Shown in pieces: positions 2,952 through 19,406 of a stretch of 24,004 bases of DNA. Below the pieces are notes generated by a model, which made no database searches, was not told the origin of the DNA, and was given only the letters and a program-made list of their open reading frames with translations. The position numbers and the translations under genes were made by a program. Within the stretch, counting starts at the first letter, position 1. Each line of letters begins with the position of its first letter. Origin of the DNA: a virus; IMG/VR virus record IMGVR_UViG_3300022700_000036, positions 1 to 24,004 of that record; one strand, written 5' to 3'.

Positions 2952-3356
2952 TTACTGTTGTGTCAACTGTCTAATACGGGTCAAAGCGTCTCGTCGTGCG
3001 GCATCCATGAATTTTGGATTACCTGTGTTTATGTGGTCTTCTGGACTACTAGCAGGGAAATACCCAGCACTTTGTACTGTTCGAGCGTGCATCCATCGAG
3101 GCAAATTAAATCCTCTATGTCTATATATTGATGGGTTTTTTGCTACAACGCGTCGTGTCTGCGGCCCGGCCTTTTCTATTCTAATATGGCTCTGTGTTCG
3201 TCCTGTATCACGAGGAGCATAACGAACTGCTCGTTGTTGTGTAAAACGTGAAAGGTCGCTAACTATCTTTTTTTGGTCTCGTTTTATTCGTCCTTTCATA
3301 TTTTTCATGAGACGAACAGCGCCTGTTGCGTCTACACTAACTTGTACATTAACCAT
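2952..3356 (-). CDS. Neck/tail completion protein, HK97 gp10-like
   Basis: 134-aa basic protein, the only clearly basic product in this acidic operon. The N-terminus MVNVQVSVDATG, helices rich in Lys/Arg (MKNMKGRIKRDQKKIV), then RAVRYAPRDTGRTQSHIRIEK match the HK97 gp10 (minor tail/neck) family pattern, where an 'AP.DTG.L...I' segment is typical. It would sit at the joint between connector and tail. Its ATG overlaps the previous stop (TAATG), so translation is coupled to the tail terminator gene. Confidence 0.75.
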   Translation of the reverse strand: MVNVQVSVDATGAVRLMKNMKGRIKRDQKKIVSDLSRFTQQRAVRYAPRDTGRTQSHIRIEKAGPQTRRVVAKNPSIYRHRGFNLPRWMHARTVQSAGYFPASSPEDHINTGNPKFMDAARRDALTRIRQLTQQ

Positions 3357-4892: not shown

Positions 4893-6209
4893 TTACCAAT
4901 CTTGTTCCGTTACTATATCTAACCTAACATCGCCTGTTACATCTGCGTTAGCCAGTAAAACAATGACATCTCCATTCAAAAACACTCGCTTCGTAGCTGT
5001 TCTACTCTCACTAACTGTTTCATTAGTCCCTTGCCCACTTTGGTAACGGACATCGTAATTTAATTGGATGCCGCCGGGGTTAGCAGCACTGCCGGTATCC
5101 GTGCCCGTACTGTCAGGGAACGTTGTTATATTTTGTGTAGTTTGTATAACACTATTTTTGGAGTTATGCTCTTCTGGGGACACAAACCCAGTTGCATCAG
5201 TTTTTTCTGGACTTACACTTTGAGCTAATACACGAATAGAGCCATCTCCTGTAAACTCCCCTATGTTCATGTCAGTAATCTGGGTGTTAACGATATCATA
5301 ATCAGGGTTTTTCCTCATAGCAGCAAATGGAACCCATGTGTCCGTACTGTCTATAGTAGTGCCAGAAGTAGATATATTAAATACTTTTGCCCGTGTAAAG
5401 GGCTCTACATCTCCAAAAGTTTGCCATCCACAACTACCAGCACTAAGCTCTAAATTAGATGTACTACTCCCTGCTGTAATCTTAAACCGAATCCTTTGGT
5501 TTCCTTGTCGTGGGCCACGTGATGAATCATCAACACTAATCTTACCAAGTTCATCGTTTATTTGCTCACCGTCTTGGCTATAACTTTGTAATGCTTTATA
5601 ACGAGCTACATTATACCAAGCAAACAGGTGACCAAACCGAGTATAATTATTAAGAACATCTTGTACGTTAACGGTTTCAACAACTTTCTCTGTTCCGTTT
5701 CTCATGATAAACATATCCGCTTGAGAAGTACCAGTAAGACTGGTGAATTTTAAACCATAGCCGTCTTGTCCATCAAACGGACCAACTCGAATAACATCAC
5801 CACTCTGCAGTGATTGATTAATAGTTAATGCTTGTGTGACAAATGCTTCATAGCCAACAACATAACGGAATATTTCTGGTGTTTGAAAAATAAGAGTTTC
5901 TCCGCTGCCCGGCTTAATAGTATGTACGTCAAATTCACCATTTCCGTCAAACCGTTGGTGTTCATACCGTGAATCAGTACTATACTGTAAGAATATTCTG
6001 TTTGATTCACTATCATCTGTTTGATAGAATCGCCACCGCTCCGGATTAAAGGGATAATGACTGGCTATATCAGCTTCGTTACGTGTGCTATCAACGATAG
6101 TTTTTCCAAATACGTCATCAAAACCACGAGTTCCTGTAGTTCTAACTGATGTAGCACCATCAGCGTCTTTAGTAAATTTATCCTCGTTTTTCTTTATAAA
6201 TTGGTTCAT
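4893..6209 (-). CDS. Large structural protein of unknown role (438 aa)
   Basis: Not recognised. 438-aa acidic protein, rich in Thr, Ser, Asp, Asn and Gly, with a strand-rich pattern, no signal peptide and no membrane segment. It sits between the major capsid protein and the connector adaptor, where some tailed viruses encode head decoration, fibre or vertex proteins; a surface protein of the head is the best guess. The start ATG at 6209 has no Shine-Dalgarno sequence: only ATTCTTCTTTC separates it from a tRNA-like mini-helix (6221-6259). Alternatives include a tail fibre out of its usual place. Confidence 0.65.
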   Translation of the reverse strand: MNQFIKKNEDKFTKDADGATSVRTTGTRGFDDVFGKTIVDSTRNEADIASHYPFNPERWRFYQTDDSESNRIFLQYSTDSRYEHQRFDGNGEFDVHTIKPGSGETLIFQTPEIFRYVVGYEAFVTQALTINQSLQSGDVIRVGPFDGQDGYGLKFTSLTGTSQADMFIMRNGTEKVVETVNVQDVLNNYTRFGHLFAWYNVARYKALQSYSQDGEQINDELGKISVDDSSRGPRQGNQRIRFKITAGSSTSNLELSAGSCGWQTFGDVEPFTRAKVFNISTSGTTIDSTDTWVPFAAMRKNPDYDIVNTQITDMNIGEFTGDGSIRVLAQSVSPEKTDATGFVSPEEHNSKNSVIQTTQNITTFPDSTGTDTGSAANPGGIQLNYDVRYQSGQGTNETVSESRTATKRVFLNGDVIVLLANADVTGDVRLDIVTEQDW

Positions 6210-6219
6210 GAAAGAAGAA

Positions 6220-6259
6220 TACCCTGCCGAGGAATCGAACCTCGGAAACCAATCAGGGT
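6220..6259 (-). other. tRNA-like mini-helix (acceptor stem + T arm)
   Basis: On the minus strand ACCCTG (6259-6254) pairs with CAGGGT (6226-6221), and CCGAGG (6245-6240) pairs with CCTCGG (6232-6227) around the loop TTCGATT. The loop matches the invariant T loop of tRNA (T54 T55 C56 R57 A58) with the G53-C61 closing pair. The two helices abut on the 3' side and total 12 bp, the same as acceptor (7) plus T stem (5). A follows as the discriminator position. Only ATTGGTTT replaces the D and anticodon arms, so this is not a working tRNA. Confidence 0.7.
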
Positions 6260-6264
6260 GGGTG

Positions 6265-6279
6265 ACTGCTAAAAGCAGT
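6265..6279 (-). other. Small hairpin just after the capsid gene
   Basis: On the minus strand ACTGC, TTTTA, GCAGT forms a perfect 5-bp stem with a 5-base loop, 18 bases after the capsid stop and 5 bases before the tRNA-like element. There is no T-run after it, so it is not a typical terminator. It may protect the 3' end of the capsid mRNA. With a 4-bp stem it also resembles an anticodon arm with loop CTTTTAG. Confidence 0.5.
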
Positions 6280-6297: not shown

Positions 6298-7281
6298 TTA
6301 AGCTGTTCGGATTGTTGCAAGGCCGTCTTCACGGAGAACTTGCATATCCCACTCTTCCGCTCCGACAATATCTGTCTTACGGTCAAGAGCATGATATTCA
6401 GTTCGGACTTCTGGTAGATGTTTCCTACAGATTCCGAAAGACCGTTCACCAGTCATGTTGGTTCGACCAGTCATGATGGCAACGTGGATGTCTGGGGTGT
6501 TAGATGTATCAACTGTTAGACGGTTACTTTCAAAGACTTCACAGCCATAGATTCGTCCAACACGTCCGGTTCGGAGTGTTTCATCCGTGCCAGCGTGGTC
6601 AACGAAGCTAAACTGTTGGTCTTTTGAAAGGTCTGCAAACTGTTTTGGCGTAACAAAGATTTTGTTAGCCTCAAAGTTGTCTTCTTTAAGAACTCGAACA
6701 GCGTCAACAACGGTTTCATAGTCCATTGTGTCGCCTGATGCGAGGTCTGAATCAGCTGCTGCAGTCCCTGGATAGACCGTATGACTTGCTCCGCTTTCAG
6801 CAGTGCTAATAGCGTTGTCTTCACGGTTAGTGATAAATGCATAACCAATCTTTTTGGACACATTGTCCATAACATCGAAGAACGCTCGGCGAGCCTCTTT
6901 GTCAGAGACTTGGAATCCAACAGTGTACTCAGTTGGATTGTACGTTACTTGATTGTAGTCGAGTGCTTGAATGCTAGCTGCATCACTTTCGTCCGTTTGA
7001 CTTGCTGGACTAGGTTCAACATCAATCTGTACGTTATATGTATCACCGGCTTGGTCAAGAAGACCATCTTCGATTTCTGCTTCCTCTTGAAGAGGTGTAG
7101 CATCTTCGGTGTAAGCTCGTAGTCGTCTGTCCCAAAGTTCGGGGTTAACGAGGTCGGCTGCGGCTTCTTGCGTATCAAACGCGTTAGCGTCAAGAGCCTC
7201 AGTGATAGCCTGTTTACCGCTACCTGAACCGGCAGCGTTAGAAAGTGTTCGGTATCCTAGGTTGTATTTTGCTTCTGTCAT
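6298..7281 (-). CDS. Major capsid protein, HK97 fold
   Basis: 327-aa acidic protein that starts MTEAKYNLGYRTL after a strong AGGAGG site 7 bases upstream. It lies right after the scaffold-like gene. The C-terminal two thirds shows the HK97-type pattern: NPTEYTVGFQVSDKEARRAF, a long helix (DVMDNVSKKIGYAFITNRED), then DYETVVDAVRVLKEDNFEANKIFVTPKQFADLSKD, and a late strand region with CEVFESNRLTV. Length is within the usual 280-400 aa range. No long N-terminal delta domain is present, in agreement with a separate scaffold. It forms the icosahedral head. Confidence 0.88.
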   Translation of the reverse strand: MTEAKYNLGYRTLSNAAGSGSGKQAITEALDANAFDTQEAAADLVNPELWDRRLRAYTEDATPLQEEAEIEDGLLDQAGDTYNVQIDVEPSPASQTDESDAASIQALDYNQVTYNPTEYTVGFQVSDKEARRAFFDVMDNVSKKIGYAFITNREDNAISTAESGASHTVYPGTAAADSDLASGDTMDYETVVDAVRVLKEDNFEANKIFVTPKQFADLSKDQQFSFVDHAGTDETLRTGRVGRIYGCEVFESNRLTVDTSNTPDIHVAIMTGRTNMTGERSFGICRKHLPEVRTEYHALDRKTDIVGAEEWDMQVLREDGLATIRTA

Positions 7282-7764: not shown

Positions 7765-8110
7765 CTTGTTTCTCCTCTAGTTCTTCAATCTGCTGTTCTA
7801 CCGATGCAATCTGTGCATCAATCTGTGCAACTTGGTCGCTGTCACCCATAGTATTAAGTTCATAAACAGCTTGTTGCCGTTCTTTTTCAGCTTCGCAATA
7901 TTCATCGTCATATACGTATTCTGGCCGGCCGTATTCGTTTTTCTCGTAACCAACTTCAACTCGACGTTCGTGCATCGTGTCACGAGCATCTGCAATCGTT
8001 TGCCGAAGCTCTTTCTTTCTCTTCAGGTTTTCTTTTTGTTCAGAGAGTCCTTCGATGCGTTTCCGTCGTTGTTCTTCTCGTTTTTTGGGTGTAAATTCTT
8101 TTTCTGTCAT
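7757..8110 (-). CDS. Coiled-coil head-region protein (117 aa)
   Basis: Not recognised. Charged helical protein with a basic first half (PKKREEQRRKRIEGLSEQ) and an acidic second half ending in a coiled coil (QIDAQIASVEQQIEELEEK). An upstream frame-matched start exists at 8149, but ATG at 8110 is preferred because GGAG lies 7-10 bases before it and it forms an ATGA overlap with the stop of the glycosyltransferase gene. Its place beside the scaffold suggests an assembly factor, perhaps an auxiliary scaffold. Confidence 0.7.
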   Translation of the reverse strand: MTEKEFTPKKREEQRRKRIEGLSEQKENLKRKKELRQTIADARDTMHERRVEVGYEKNEYGRPEYVYDDEYCEAEKERQQAVYELNTMGDSDQVAQIDAQIASVEQQIEELEEKQDE

Positions 8111-8874
8111 GTCTTTTGCTCCTTTCTCCACGTCTTTTTGTCCGTCCAAGGACTGGGGTCGTGGTCTACTTCCCTATCAGTGTCAACAAATGGCTGAATG
8201 CCGTTGTTTCGTAATTGAAAGTAAAACCATGTATCGGTATGTTGTTTGTCGCCGCCACGGTCTATGTGGTCTAATTCGGGTATCTCGGCCATCAAATCCG
8301 TGTCGATTAACGTGCAGCCAAAGCCACATCCGTGACACGGTTGTAAGCCACTCTTCCACCACCGGCCTATCTCCTGCCGACTAATTACTTTCCCGCCGTC
8401 TAACTTGTATTTCGTTCCAAGCATCCGGCTTCCAATCATACCCTGCTCGGTCTCTCTATCGACCATAATACACGGTTGGAAGTATTCGTCTTGGTGTGGT
8501 AAACCAAGAAAATACCATGAGCCGACTATCTCTTTGTCGTGCAACAGTAACCTGTCGATGACATCCGGTTCGGGGTATAAGTCGGATTCGACTGTCAATA
8601 CGTAATCAAAGTTGTTGTCCAACGCATAATCCCAGATTTTTTGGTACCCGTTGGTCACAGCTTCATACGCATCGTCGCCTGCATCCGCTTGAAGCGTTCT
8701 CACGCCTCTTCGTCTGAGGGTCGAAAGGTATGATGTACCTTGGCTCGTATCTACCATCAGATGCTTGTAATTTGGATATTTGATTGACCTGATGGAGTCG
8801 ATGTATTTTTCAAAAGCGTAGTCTTTGCCTTGGTACGTTGTCGTCGCAACAAGGACTCGTGGATAACCTGTCAT
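8107..8874 (-). CDS. GT-A fold glycosyltransferase
   Basis: 255-aa protein with the pattern of family-2-like glycosyltransferases: RVLVATTTYQG at residues 6-16, YKHLMVDTSQG near 36-46, DYVLTVESDLYPEPDVIDRLL near 90-110 with ESD (96-98) in the DxD metal/nucleotide-sugar position, and HTDTWFYFQLRNNGI with a final VDH (236-238) that fits the metal-binding end of the fold. A Cys-rich CHGCGFGC segment is at 180-187. It lies inside the head operon, between protease and scaffold genes, overlapping both neighbours, so it is made together with the capsid. It may glycosylate a virion protein or a host surface component; the target is unknown. Confidence 0.78.
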   Translation of the reverse strand: MTGYPRVLVATTTYQGKDYAFEKYIDSIRSIKYPNYKHLMVDTSQGTSYLSTLRRRGVRTLQADAGDDAYEAVTNGYQKIWDYALDNNFDYVLTVESDLYPEPDVIDRLLLHDKEIVGSWYFLGLPHQDEYFQPCIMVDRETEQGMIGSRMLGTKYKLDGGKVISRQEIGRWWKSGLQPCHGCGFGCTLIDTDLMAEIPELDHIDRGGDKQHTDTWFYFQLRNNGIQPFVDTDREVDHDPSPWTDKKTWRKEQKT

Positions 8875-13645: not shown

Positions 13646-13944
13646 AAATCCTGGTTTTCTATATGATTTTCTATATATCTAATCTTCTTTTCACTAAGCC
13701 TAGCGTTAAACGTTATATCATCAATATAAACTACTAAACCCTCTTCTTTATGAATCGACATCTTTTTACTGCTTTCTTCGTCCAATAAAATATATCTTTC
13801 GTCTTCGTTTTTTATTGTATCAAACGTAAACCATATATGAGAACTATACTCCGAGTATGGGTCAATATTAAACTCGATATAACCTCTATATTCACTCCCG
13901 GCAAACGTTCCGGGGCTTCTAAAACTTAAATTTGTACCAGCCAT
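13630..13944 (-). CDS. Unknown protein (104 aa), AT-rich gene
   Basis: Not recognised. Beta-rich start (TNLSFRSPGTFAGSEYRGYIEF), a central WFTFDTIKNEDERYILLDEE and a C-terminal helix. It looks like a compact soluble domain. The codons are more AT-rich than those of flanking genes, which suggests separate origin. A very good promoter (13967-13984) places the transcript start only about 10 bases before the ATG, so the mRNA would be nearly leaderless. Confidence 0.65.
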   Translation of the reverse strand: MAGTNLSFRSPGTFAGSEYRGYIEFNIDPYSEYSSHIWFTFDTIKNEDERYILLDEESSKKMSIHKEEGLVVYIDDITFNARLSEKKIRYIENHIENQDLPKHL

Positions 13945-14417: not shown

Positions 14418-14446
14418 CTGATTCTCGCACTACGTACGACAATCAG
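14418..14446. promoter_or_regulatory. Second copy of the TAC-centred palindrome
   Basis: CTGATTCTCGCAC, TAC, GTACGACAATCAG: 13-base arms, near complementary. The core CGCRCTACGYACGA is shared with the terminase operator at 12943-12967. Probably a binding site for the same regulator. Confidence 0.6.
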
Positions 14447-14463
14447 CATCTATATTATGCGAA

Positions 14464-14770
14464 CGTGCGCACACGTGCGTGCGTACTAGAGTATGCTCTA
14501 GTGTGTAATCTAGTGTGTATCTAGTGATAGGCTAGAGGATAACCTCTTTATTTTACCTGTGTTATTTTACCTGTGTACTTACCTGTGTAATCCCTTGTAA
14601 TTATGCTAGAGTAGAGTTATGCTTATACTAGTGTTCCTTATCCTAGTGTTACATATTCTAGCTTATACTAGAGTCTTAGCACTCTAGAGGTCTAGACACT
14701 ACTCTAGAGTTATATTTTAATGCTTTATAACTTTTTTGGGTTTATAAATAGAGATGGTAAAAACTAGAGA
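14464..14770. repeat. CTAG-rich non-coding region A
   Basis: About 300 bases without a plausible gene and with about 14 CTAG tetramers, a word that is sparse elsewhere in the window. It opens with 22 bases of strict alternating purine-pyrimidine (14464-14485) and the 16-base palindrome CTAGAGTATGCTCTAG (14486-14501). It holds ACCTGTG tandem repeats (14548-14587), several TCTAGA/ACTCTAGAGT palindromes and a TATA-like TTTATAAATA near 14750. The function is not known; origin, partition, packaging or regulator-binding roles are possible. Confidence 0.7.
14548..14587. repeat. Tandem repeat ACCTGTG x3
   Basis: TTATTTTACCTGTG occurs twice in direct tandem (14548-14561, 14562-14575), then a shorter TACTTACCTGTG (14576-14587). 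On the minus strand this is CACAGGTAA three times. It resembles replication iterons or a clustered operator. Confidence 0.6.
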
Positions 14771-18164: not shown

Positions 18165-19406
18165 ATGTCGATAACACTAAACGGAAATTACACTGATGCT
18201 GAAATCAAGACTGACCATGTAGATGATACAACGATAGACCAGCTTCAAACGTTGGTTAACCATGAAGCGTTTACGAACCCTGTAAAGGTTATGCCTGATG
18301 CTCATGCTGGAGCAGGTGCAGTCATAGGATTTACTATGAAAGTAGATGATAAAGTATGTCCAAACACTGTCGGTGTAGATATTGGTTGTGGTATGTACGC
18401 AGTTAAACTGACAGAAACTGTTGAACCAAGAAAGTTTGTTATAGCGTGTAATGACGTTATTCCGATGGGTAGAAACGTTCATAATGAAGAGCGGGACTTA
18501 CTACCTATTGAAGACGAAGTAGAAAAAATTTGTGACAAGATAGATTATTCGTTTAGTCGAGCAAAACAAAGTATCGGCACACTTGGTGGTGGAAATCACT
18601 TTATCGAGTTAGCAGAGGATGAAGACGAAAATCAATGGATTGTTATTCACAGTGGAAGTAGAGGGTTTGGATTTAATGTTTCACAGTATCATCAAGAAAA
18701 AGCTGTTGAACAGTGCAGTTCATGGGATACATCGACACTGACAGAAAAAGAAAAAGAGTTTGTTGATGATGAACAGATAGATTATGAGTCGATTCGAGAT
18801 GCATACAGCGGAAAAAATATTGAACAAATGATAGACCGTCTTAACAACAAAAGAAGAGAATCTGAGCAGATTGACGAGGATTTAGCATATCTTACTGGTG
18901 AAGACGCAGCAGAATATAAACATGATATGCGAATAGCTCAAAGATATGCGAGTTTAAACCGGGGTGAGATGATGGGAGAAATACTATATAAACTTGGTGT
19001 AGAAGCTGCTGATAGTATACAATCACCACATAACTTTATAAGTCCAAAAGACAATATAGTTCGTAAAGGTGCAACACCGGCACGAGAAGGGCAGAGAGGT
19101 ATAGTACCCTTTAACATGGCTGATGGCAGCATTATTATTAAAGGTAAAGGAAACCCAGACTGGAATTATTCAGCTCCGCACGGCGCAGGACGTGTTATGA
19201 GTAGGAACGAAGCATATGATAGTATTTCAGTTACAGAATTTCAACAAAGAATGGAAGACGTGTTTAGTATTAATATAAACAGCGACACATTAGATGAAGC
19301 ACCACAAGCTTATAAAAATATATCTGTTATTATGGATGTAATCGATGAAACAGCAGAAGTTGTAGGTAGATTGACACCGGTAGCTAATGTTAAAGCAGAT
19401 GAGTAG
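18165..19406 (+). CDS. rtcB: RtcB tRNA/RNA-splicing ligase
   Basis: 413-aa RNA ligase that joins 2',3'-cyclic-phosphate (or 3'-phosphate) and 5'-OH RNA ends using GTP and Mn2+. All landmark motifs are present: VMPDAHAGAG (Asp44, His46), VGVDIGCGM (Asp72, Cys75), GTLGGGNHFIE (His145), IHSGSRGFG (from His162), SPHNF (His289) and the guanylated-histidine motif SAPHGAGR (His339). Length is close to the 400-aa bacterial/viral form and shorter than the roughly 480-aa cellular archaeal form. It is first in a long operon. It probably repairs tRNAs cut by host anti-viral nucleases. Codons are AT-rich relative to the structural genes, in line with acquisition. Confidence 0.95.
   Translation: MSITLNGNYTDAEIKTDHVDDTTIDQLQTLVNHEAFTNPVKVMPDAHAGAGAVIGFTMKVDDKVCPNTVGVDIGCGMYAVKLTETVEPRKFVIACNDVIPMGRNVHNEERDLLPIEDEVEKICDKIDYSFSRAKQSIGTLGGGNHFIELAEDEDENQWIVIHSGSRGFGFNVSQYHQEKAVEQCSSWDTSTLTEKEKEFVDDEQIDYESIRDAYSGKNIEQMIDRLNNKRRESEQIDEDLAYLTGEDAAEYKHDMRIAQRYASLNRGEMMGEILYKLGVEAADSIQSPHNFISPKDNIVRKGATPAREGQRGIVPFNMADGSIIIKGKGNPDWNYSAPHGAGRVMSRNEAYDSISVTEFQQRMEDVFSININSDTLDEAPQAYKNISVIMDVIDETAEVVGRLTPVANVKADE

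Follow-up and report, generated by a model that had tools for sequence, protein, structure and literature searches.

The window analysed, a genome fragment of 24,004 bases from an uncultivated head-tail virus, carries on its minus strand a 40-letter element that, judged by its sequence and predicted fold, belongs structurally to the haloarchaeal t-elements. It is located between the genes of the major capsid protein and of a homologue of HFTV1 gp20, and is probably an intercistronic cutting signal at which host RNase P and tRNase Z would separate the capsid mRNA from the mRNA of the gp20-like protein. The features concerned are the following, all on the minus strand:

6298..7281, minus: major capsid protein gene (HK97 fold family), the upstream cistron, with a GGAGG ribosome site
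6279-6265, minus: short hairpin ACTGCT-TTT-AGCAGT, within the 3' UTR of the capsid mRNA, between stop codon and t-element
6220..6259, minus: t-element, a tRNA acceptor/T-arm mini-helix of 40 letters (sequence, fold, host pre-5S model, covariation)
6259-6254 ACCCTG with 6226-6221 CAGGGT, minus: acceptor-like stem, 6 bp
6253-6246, minus: linker ATTGGTTT, 8 nt
6245-6240 CCGAGG with 6232-6227 CCTCGG, minus: T stem, 6 bp
6239-6233, minus: T loop TTCGATT
6220, minus: discriminator A
6219-6210, minus: spacer TTCTTCTTTC, 10 nt, without a Shine-Dalgarno sequence, followed by the ATG at 6209
4893..6209, minus: downstream cistron, 438 amino acids, HFTV1 gp20 homologue (tblastn, synteny)

Twelve of the twelve pairs within 6259-6220 are Watson-Crick pairs, and folding of the region gives the mini-helix as the structure of lowest energy (-23.9 kcal/mol, z -3.98, with none of 200 shuffles equally stable). 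The D arm and the anticodon arm are absent, the 8-nt linker taking their place. An earlier note, made from the DNA letters, had described the minus strand as folding into the upper half of a tRNA, and the 12-bp stack, the TTCGATT loop and the discriminator A were all verified base by base. The GG that it pointed out in the linker replacing the missing arms is present, and is nearly universal among related elements. Its range of 6220-6279 contains the correct element coordinates but also spans the separate hairpin at 6279-6265. The element is placed 38 nt past the capsid stop codon and 10 nt ahead of the next ATG. When both strands of the window were searched with a descriptor of tRNA-like mini-helices, the only match was 6259-6220; in Markov sequences, 0.005 (strict descriptor) to 0.05 (loose descriptor) matches are expected per window by chance. 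ARAGORN reported no tRNA genes, and Rfam gave only sub-threshold chance matches in the element region, the tRNA family being unmatched.

The capsid gene is identified by its match to the PHROG 267/544 major head protein (E 2e-15), while the Pfam family Phage_capsid_4 falls just under the cut-off. The 438-residue protein matches HFTV1 gp20 at 27% (tblastn, E 8e-21), a homologue in record LR756508 at 36% and one at locus L517, the closest gp20-like relative found, at 39%. The gene order is that of HFTV1, where gp20 directly follows the capsid gene, and gp20 has been identified by mass spectrometry among the HFTV1 virion structural proteins (PMC12494034). The LR756508 homologue (30324-31622) is part of a 484-kb uncultured phage record, which also contains a distant terminase. 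Single-protein searches of viral contigs and phages with the capsid, terminase and portal proteins gave no relatives, a terminase alignment search gave relatives at 20-27% only, and a gp20 alignment search of viral contigs gave six distant relatives, one of them HFTV1-like (L450). Shine-Dalgarno sequences are present at the capsid gene and at several other genes of the window; upstream of the 4893-6209 gene neither a Shine-Dalgarno sequence nor a TATA-like box was found, in agreement with the earlier description of a downstream gene that lacks a ribosome site and starts shortly past the presumed cut.

Single-gene archaeal promoters and acidic proteins are found in the window; TTTATAAA-like archaeal promoter boxes lie 25-30 nt ahead of the ATGs at 13944 (minus) and 18165 (plus). 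The second of these positions begins the following gene:

18165-19406, plus: gene of an RtcB RNA ligase, preceded by an archaeal-type promoter of its own

The best match of this ligase in a phage collection is that of halovirus HCTV-5 (42%), followed by other phages. From the archaeal promoters, the acidic proteins, the HCTV-5-like RtcB and the HFTV1 gp20 homologue we infer a host that is haloarchaeal or similar. Elsewhere in the window, a non-coding region (14440-14720) between two divergent gene blocks is dense in short CTAG-containing repeats (tctagtg, ctagag) and could be an origin or a regulatory region, and the head-gene cluster contains a glycosyltransferase-like protein of 255 amino acids (8107-8874) with no Pfam family match.

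Assignment to the t-elements is based on comparison with those that precede 5S rRNA in haloarchaea. A covariance model, R1, was built from 20 haloarchaeal pre-5S t-elements (alignment A2), with the virus left out. The element is its top match in the window, at 31.6 bits and E 6.4e-7 against 15.3 bits for the runner-up; a covariance-model search had been proposed in the earlier note, and the host model does find the element. About 80 distinct haloarchaeal pre-5S elements have the acceptor CCGAC/GTCGG, a linker starting with NNWGG, a 6-bp T stem and a TTCGANY loop. The viral T arm has the same 6-bp stem, with a TTCRANY loop and G-C closure, and its acceptor stem is likewise stacked on the T stem, giving 12 pairs in the virus and 11, with a frequent A.C, in the hosts. 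The linker begins with ATTGG in the virus and with ACAGG, ACTGG, ATTGG and similar sequences in the hosts. In the L229 pre-5S element (ACCGAC-ATTGGTTTAA-CCACGG-TTCGATT-CCGTGG-GTCGG) the viral anatomy is almost copied. The viral element is located between two protein genes and not ahead of 5S rRNA; this location is not taken as defining, because haloarchaeal chromosomes, too, have members of the class between protein genes, there for signal-peptide-bearing, surface-type proteins:

L367:4561-11075: t-elements between protein genes
L370:6058-6100: t-element between protein genes
L462:4301-4344: t-element between protein genes
L463:4876-4919: t-element between protein genes, coordinates counted on the minus strand of L463

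In haloarchaeal chromosomes, R1 matches elements away from 5S in a run of signal-peptide-bearing, surface-type genes in Halorubrum saccharovorum and Natronomonas gomsonensis, and what is apparently one and the same gene pair carries an element in Halorussus and Halomicrococcus. Some candidates were rejected: the G005 C4 match (L371) and partial 18-34 matches of the models near annotated tRNA-Gln genes were regarded as tRNA T arms, and a pattern search for TTGGTTT plus a T arm found no relative, most of its matches being arms of the ordinary tRNA type.

A broader model, R2, comes from alignment A3, in which 16 elements, that of the window included, were assembled by structure. Compensating changes across related viruses had been named in the earlier note as a check, and 8 of the 11 pairs in A3 have changed on both sides, with 44 double-change cells and 99.4% paired; the covariation far exceeds that of shuffles and of slid controls. 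In a control of 1.55 Mb of other viral contigs, nothing scored above 26.3 bits.

Among known haloviruses, R1 matches HF2 (in two places), HFTV1, HRTV-7 and HCTV-6, to which R2 adds HHTV-2, HRTV-4 and HSTV-2. Elements of at least 38 bits are present in 7 of the 19 haloviruses tested, with HF2, HFTV1 and one HRTV-7 sequence being among the 16 training sequences of R2. The HFTV1 element is located between gp62 and the PCNA gene: it begins right after the gp62 stop codon, and the PCNA ATG follows 10 nt past the end of the modelled element. The gp62-gp65 cluster that contains it is reported to be expressed early (PMC12542753). In HRTV-4 the element shares one base with the stop codon of gene 25, and 5 nt separate it from gene 26; at L517 it occupies the gap from the stop codon of one gene to the ATG of the next. 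HRTV-7, HSTV-2 and HCTV-6 have it at one common place, where the intergenic region is longer and the element lies about 230 nt past one gene and about 145 nt ahead of the next. Downstream of both HF2 elements (L426:1406-1449 and 2876-2918) come a hairpin and GTGACACCGATG, a leader design that the two have in common. The 45-nt gap between capsid gene and gp20 in HFTV1 contains no element, and none was found in LR756508, either ahead of the gp20-like gene or across the record at E 0.05; the place between capsid and gp20 genes is therefore not conserved. R2 gave no significant element in the six relatives from the gp20 alignment search.

The t-elements of Haloferax are cleaved by tRNase Z and are processed in vivo by RNase P plus tRNase Z (PMC4326828, PMC3296008). 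By analogy, the viral element would act as a minimal tRNA, formed by the coaxial acceptor/T-arm stack, the T loop and the GG linker, within a polycistronic late mRNA. As in Haloferax, host RNase P would cut 5' of A6259 and host tRNase Z 3' of A6220. The capsid mRNA would be released with the short hairpin (6279-6265) and a few more bases at its 3' end, and the downstream mRNA with an unstructured 10-nt leader, from which translation would start leaderless or without a Shine-Dalgarno sequence. Haloarchaea commonly start translation in these ways. After the cuts, stability and translation of the two structural messages would no longer be coupled, and one promoter could serve to make capsid and gp20-like protein in different amounts. 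Other tailed viruses, archaeal and bacterial, apparently use this device as well. The processing site that the earlier note suggested is strongly backed by the comparison with pre-5S t-elements, by the relatives at gene boundaries and by the covariation; cleavage in this virus is extrapolated from Haloferax, and the corresponding HFTV1 junction has no element.

A search pattern made of the letters that are fixed in the class matched at least 119 IMG/VR stretches; stems are complete in at least 80 elements, at least 44 of them non-redundant. Position statistics were taken for 37 non-redundant elements away from contig ends, among the matches listed. A sense stop codon lies within 60 nt upstream of 84% of these, against 16% for random positions and 11% for the opposite strand, whereas a start codon lies downstream of 54%, against 42% for random positions. 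As this second enrichment is weak, it is the position 3' of a gene that holds up, and the elements in general may serve some end other than freeing the 5' end of a downstream RNA. In many viruses the stop codon overlaps the element, its last A being also the element's first. Contig L507 (IMGVR_UViG_3300032247_001328) has seven elements within 6 kb, at one gene boundary after another. No two of them have the same acceptor stem or the same T stem, while T loop and linker GG are constant; an AT-rich leader without a Shine-Dalgarno sequence follows each element, and the start codon is 14-16 nt past six of them. Other contigs have ten elements in 12.9 kb (L560), seven (L534) or four (L489 and L544), and in these five contigs all or almost all of the 4-10 mini-helices, within 6-14 kb, lie at gene boundaries and on the coding strand. 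One further locus, L470, is identical to Streptococcus phage Javan235 and has a mini-helix at 3263-3306, upstream of the terminase gene region; the class is thus not confined to archaeal viruses, the structures of non-halophilic viruses being assigned to it by a pattern derived from these same elements. Elements of archaeal and bacterial viruses are connected through their common anatomy, which could have arisen by convergence: the smallest substrates of RNase P/Z may all have such a shape. On balance, we lean towards a general and so far undescribed mini-tRNA system of gene punctuation in tailed viruses of archaea and bacteria, in which an acceptor, a T arm and a GG linker, placed at gene boundaries, up to nearly all of those within an operon, would let RNase P/Z produce single-gene mRNAs. 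Our literature search found no report of viral t-elements; a 2012 paper on H. volcanii may cover intercistronic ones of the host.

The main rival reading, which we consider unlikely and with which the position statistics of the wider class agree well, is that the element chiefly makes a tRNA-like 3' end for the capsid mRNA, any downstream effect being secondary. In that case tRNase Z would cut after A6220, CCA would perhaps be added, and the mini-helix would be kept as a protective cap, for which plant-virus tRNA-like structures and the mascRNA/MALAT1 pathway provide precedents. The tight link to the upstream stop codon (84% against 16%), and not to the downstream start (54% against 42%), favours this, as does the frequent sharing of the first A with the stop codon in viruses. 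However, six of the seven L507 elements are 14-16 nt before the next start, the next ATG follows within about 10 nt in the window, HFTV1, HRTV-4 and L517, and Haloferax constructs with flanking t-elements are cut on both sides, by both enzymes (PMC4326828).

Far less probable is an attP core or the fossil of a captured host tRNA gene, the alternative held open in the earlier note. Haloviruses do have tRNA-like attP sites, such as that of HF2 (HrrHF2_450, PMC8707807), which resembles the window element as a tRNA-like sequence in a halovirus but has a role in integration and corresponds to the 3' end of a host tRNA. For the window element, 20 nt of the 3' half have no exact match in 292 haloarchaeal genomes, and two one-mismatch places in total. 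Moreover, the 5' acceptor strand is complete, just 8 nt separate the arms, no integrase family was found among the scanned proteins of the window (itself a fragment), and the same architecture is met again at many gene boundaries, up to ten per genome, with stems that are unrelated or evolved independently. A plain stem-loop, acting as terminator, mRNA stabiliser or attenuator and resembling a tRNA by accident, is similarly improbable: intergenic hairpins are common after highly expressed genes, but such an accident would have to include the T-loop sequence, the 11-12-bp stack, the NNWGG linker and an E of 6e-7 to a model trained on host pre-5S t-elements alone, at a chance expectation of 0.005-0.05 per window. 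We give almost no weight to a decoy or regulator that titrates host tRNA-processing enzymes or serves as substrate of the viral RtcB: the window does encode this ligase, but the ends made by RNase P and tRNase Z, 5'-phosphate and 3'-hydroxyl, are of another type than those of RtcB (the link to RtcB was set aside on this end chemistry), haloviruses often have RtcB with or without t-elements, and the gene-boundary position is left unexplained.

If the intercistronic t-element is a cut signal for host tRNA enzymes, it would provide a mechanism for an observation on HF2 and phiH1, the long late transcripts of which are reported to appear as much smaller RNAs, with processing suggested, but unproven (PMC8707807). 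This is testable in HFTV1 and HF2, the hosts of which are in culture. The mini-tRNA pattern escapes standard annotation, and Rfam and ARAGORN left the elements unrecognised in the wider-class loci tested.

The closest known system is the pre-5S t-element of Haloferax volcanii and other haloarchaea (Hoelzle 2008, 2012; PMC4326828), which shares the acceptor stem, the 6-bp T stem, the TTCGANY loop and the NNWGG linker and, like the viral copy, is located immediately upstream of the RNA to be released. The acceptor sequence differs (CCCTG/CAGGG in the virus, CCGAC/GTCGG in haloarchaeal pre-5S elements), as do the sixth acceptor pair (A-T against A.C in most of the latter) and the linker, with 8 nt in the virus and at least 9 nt in the host pre-5S elements seen. 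RNase P also cuts bacterial and phage RNAs that are not tRNAs, among them the his and tna operon mRNAs and the P1 and P4 RNAs; these resemble the viral element in having tRNA-like folds, handled by tRNA enzymes, in non-tRNA transcripts, but are irregular and found singly, whereas here a regular architecture recurs. In phage T7, the host endonuclease RNase III separates phage mRNAs at sites between genes, which are likewise intercistronic RNA structures, but double-stranded hairpins and not of tRNA shape. In mitochondria, tRNAs or tRNA-like structures between genes, such as the t-elements of plant mitochondria, mark where transcripts are cut. Mini-tRNAs at successive gene boundaries, as in several uncultivated viruses and a Streptococcus prophage, would parallel this punctuation, with whole tRNAs or unrelated tRNA-like forms in the organelles and a mini-helix in the DNA viruses described here.
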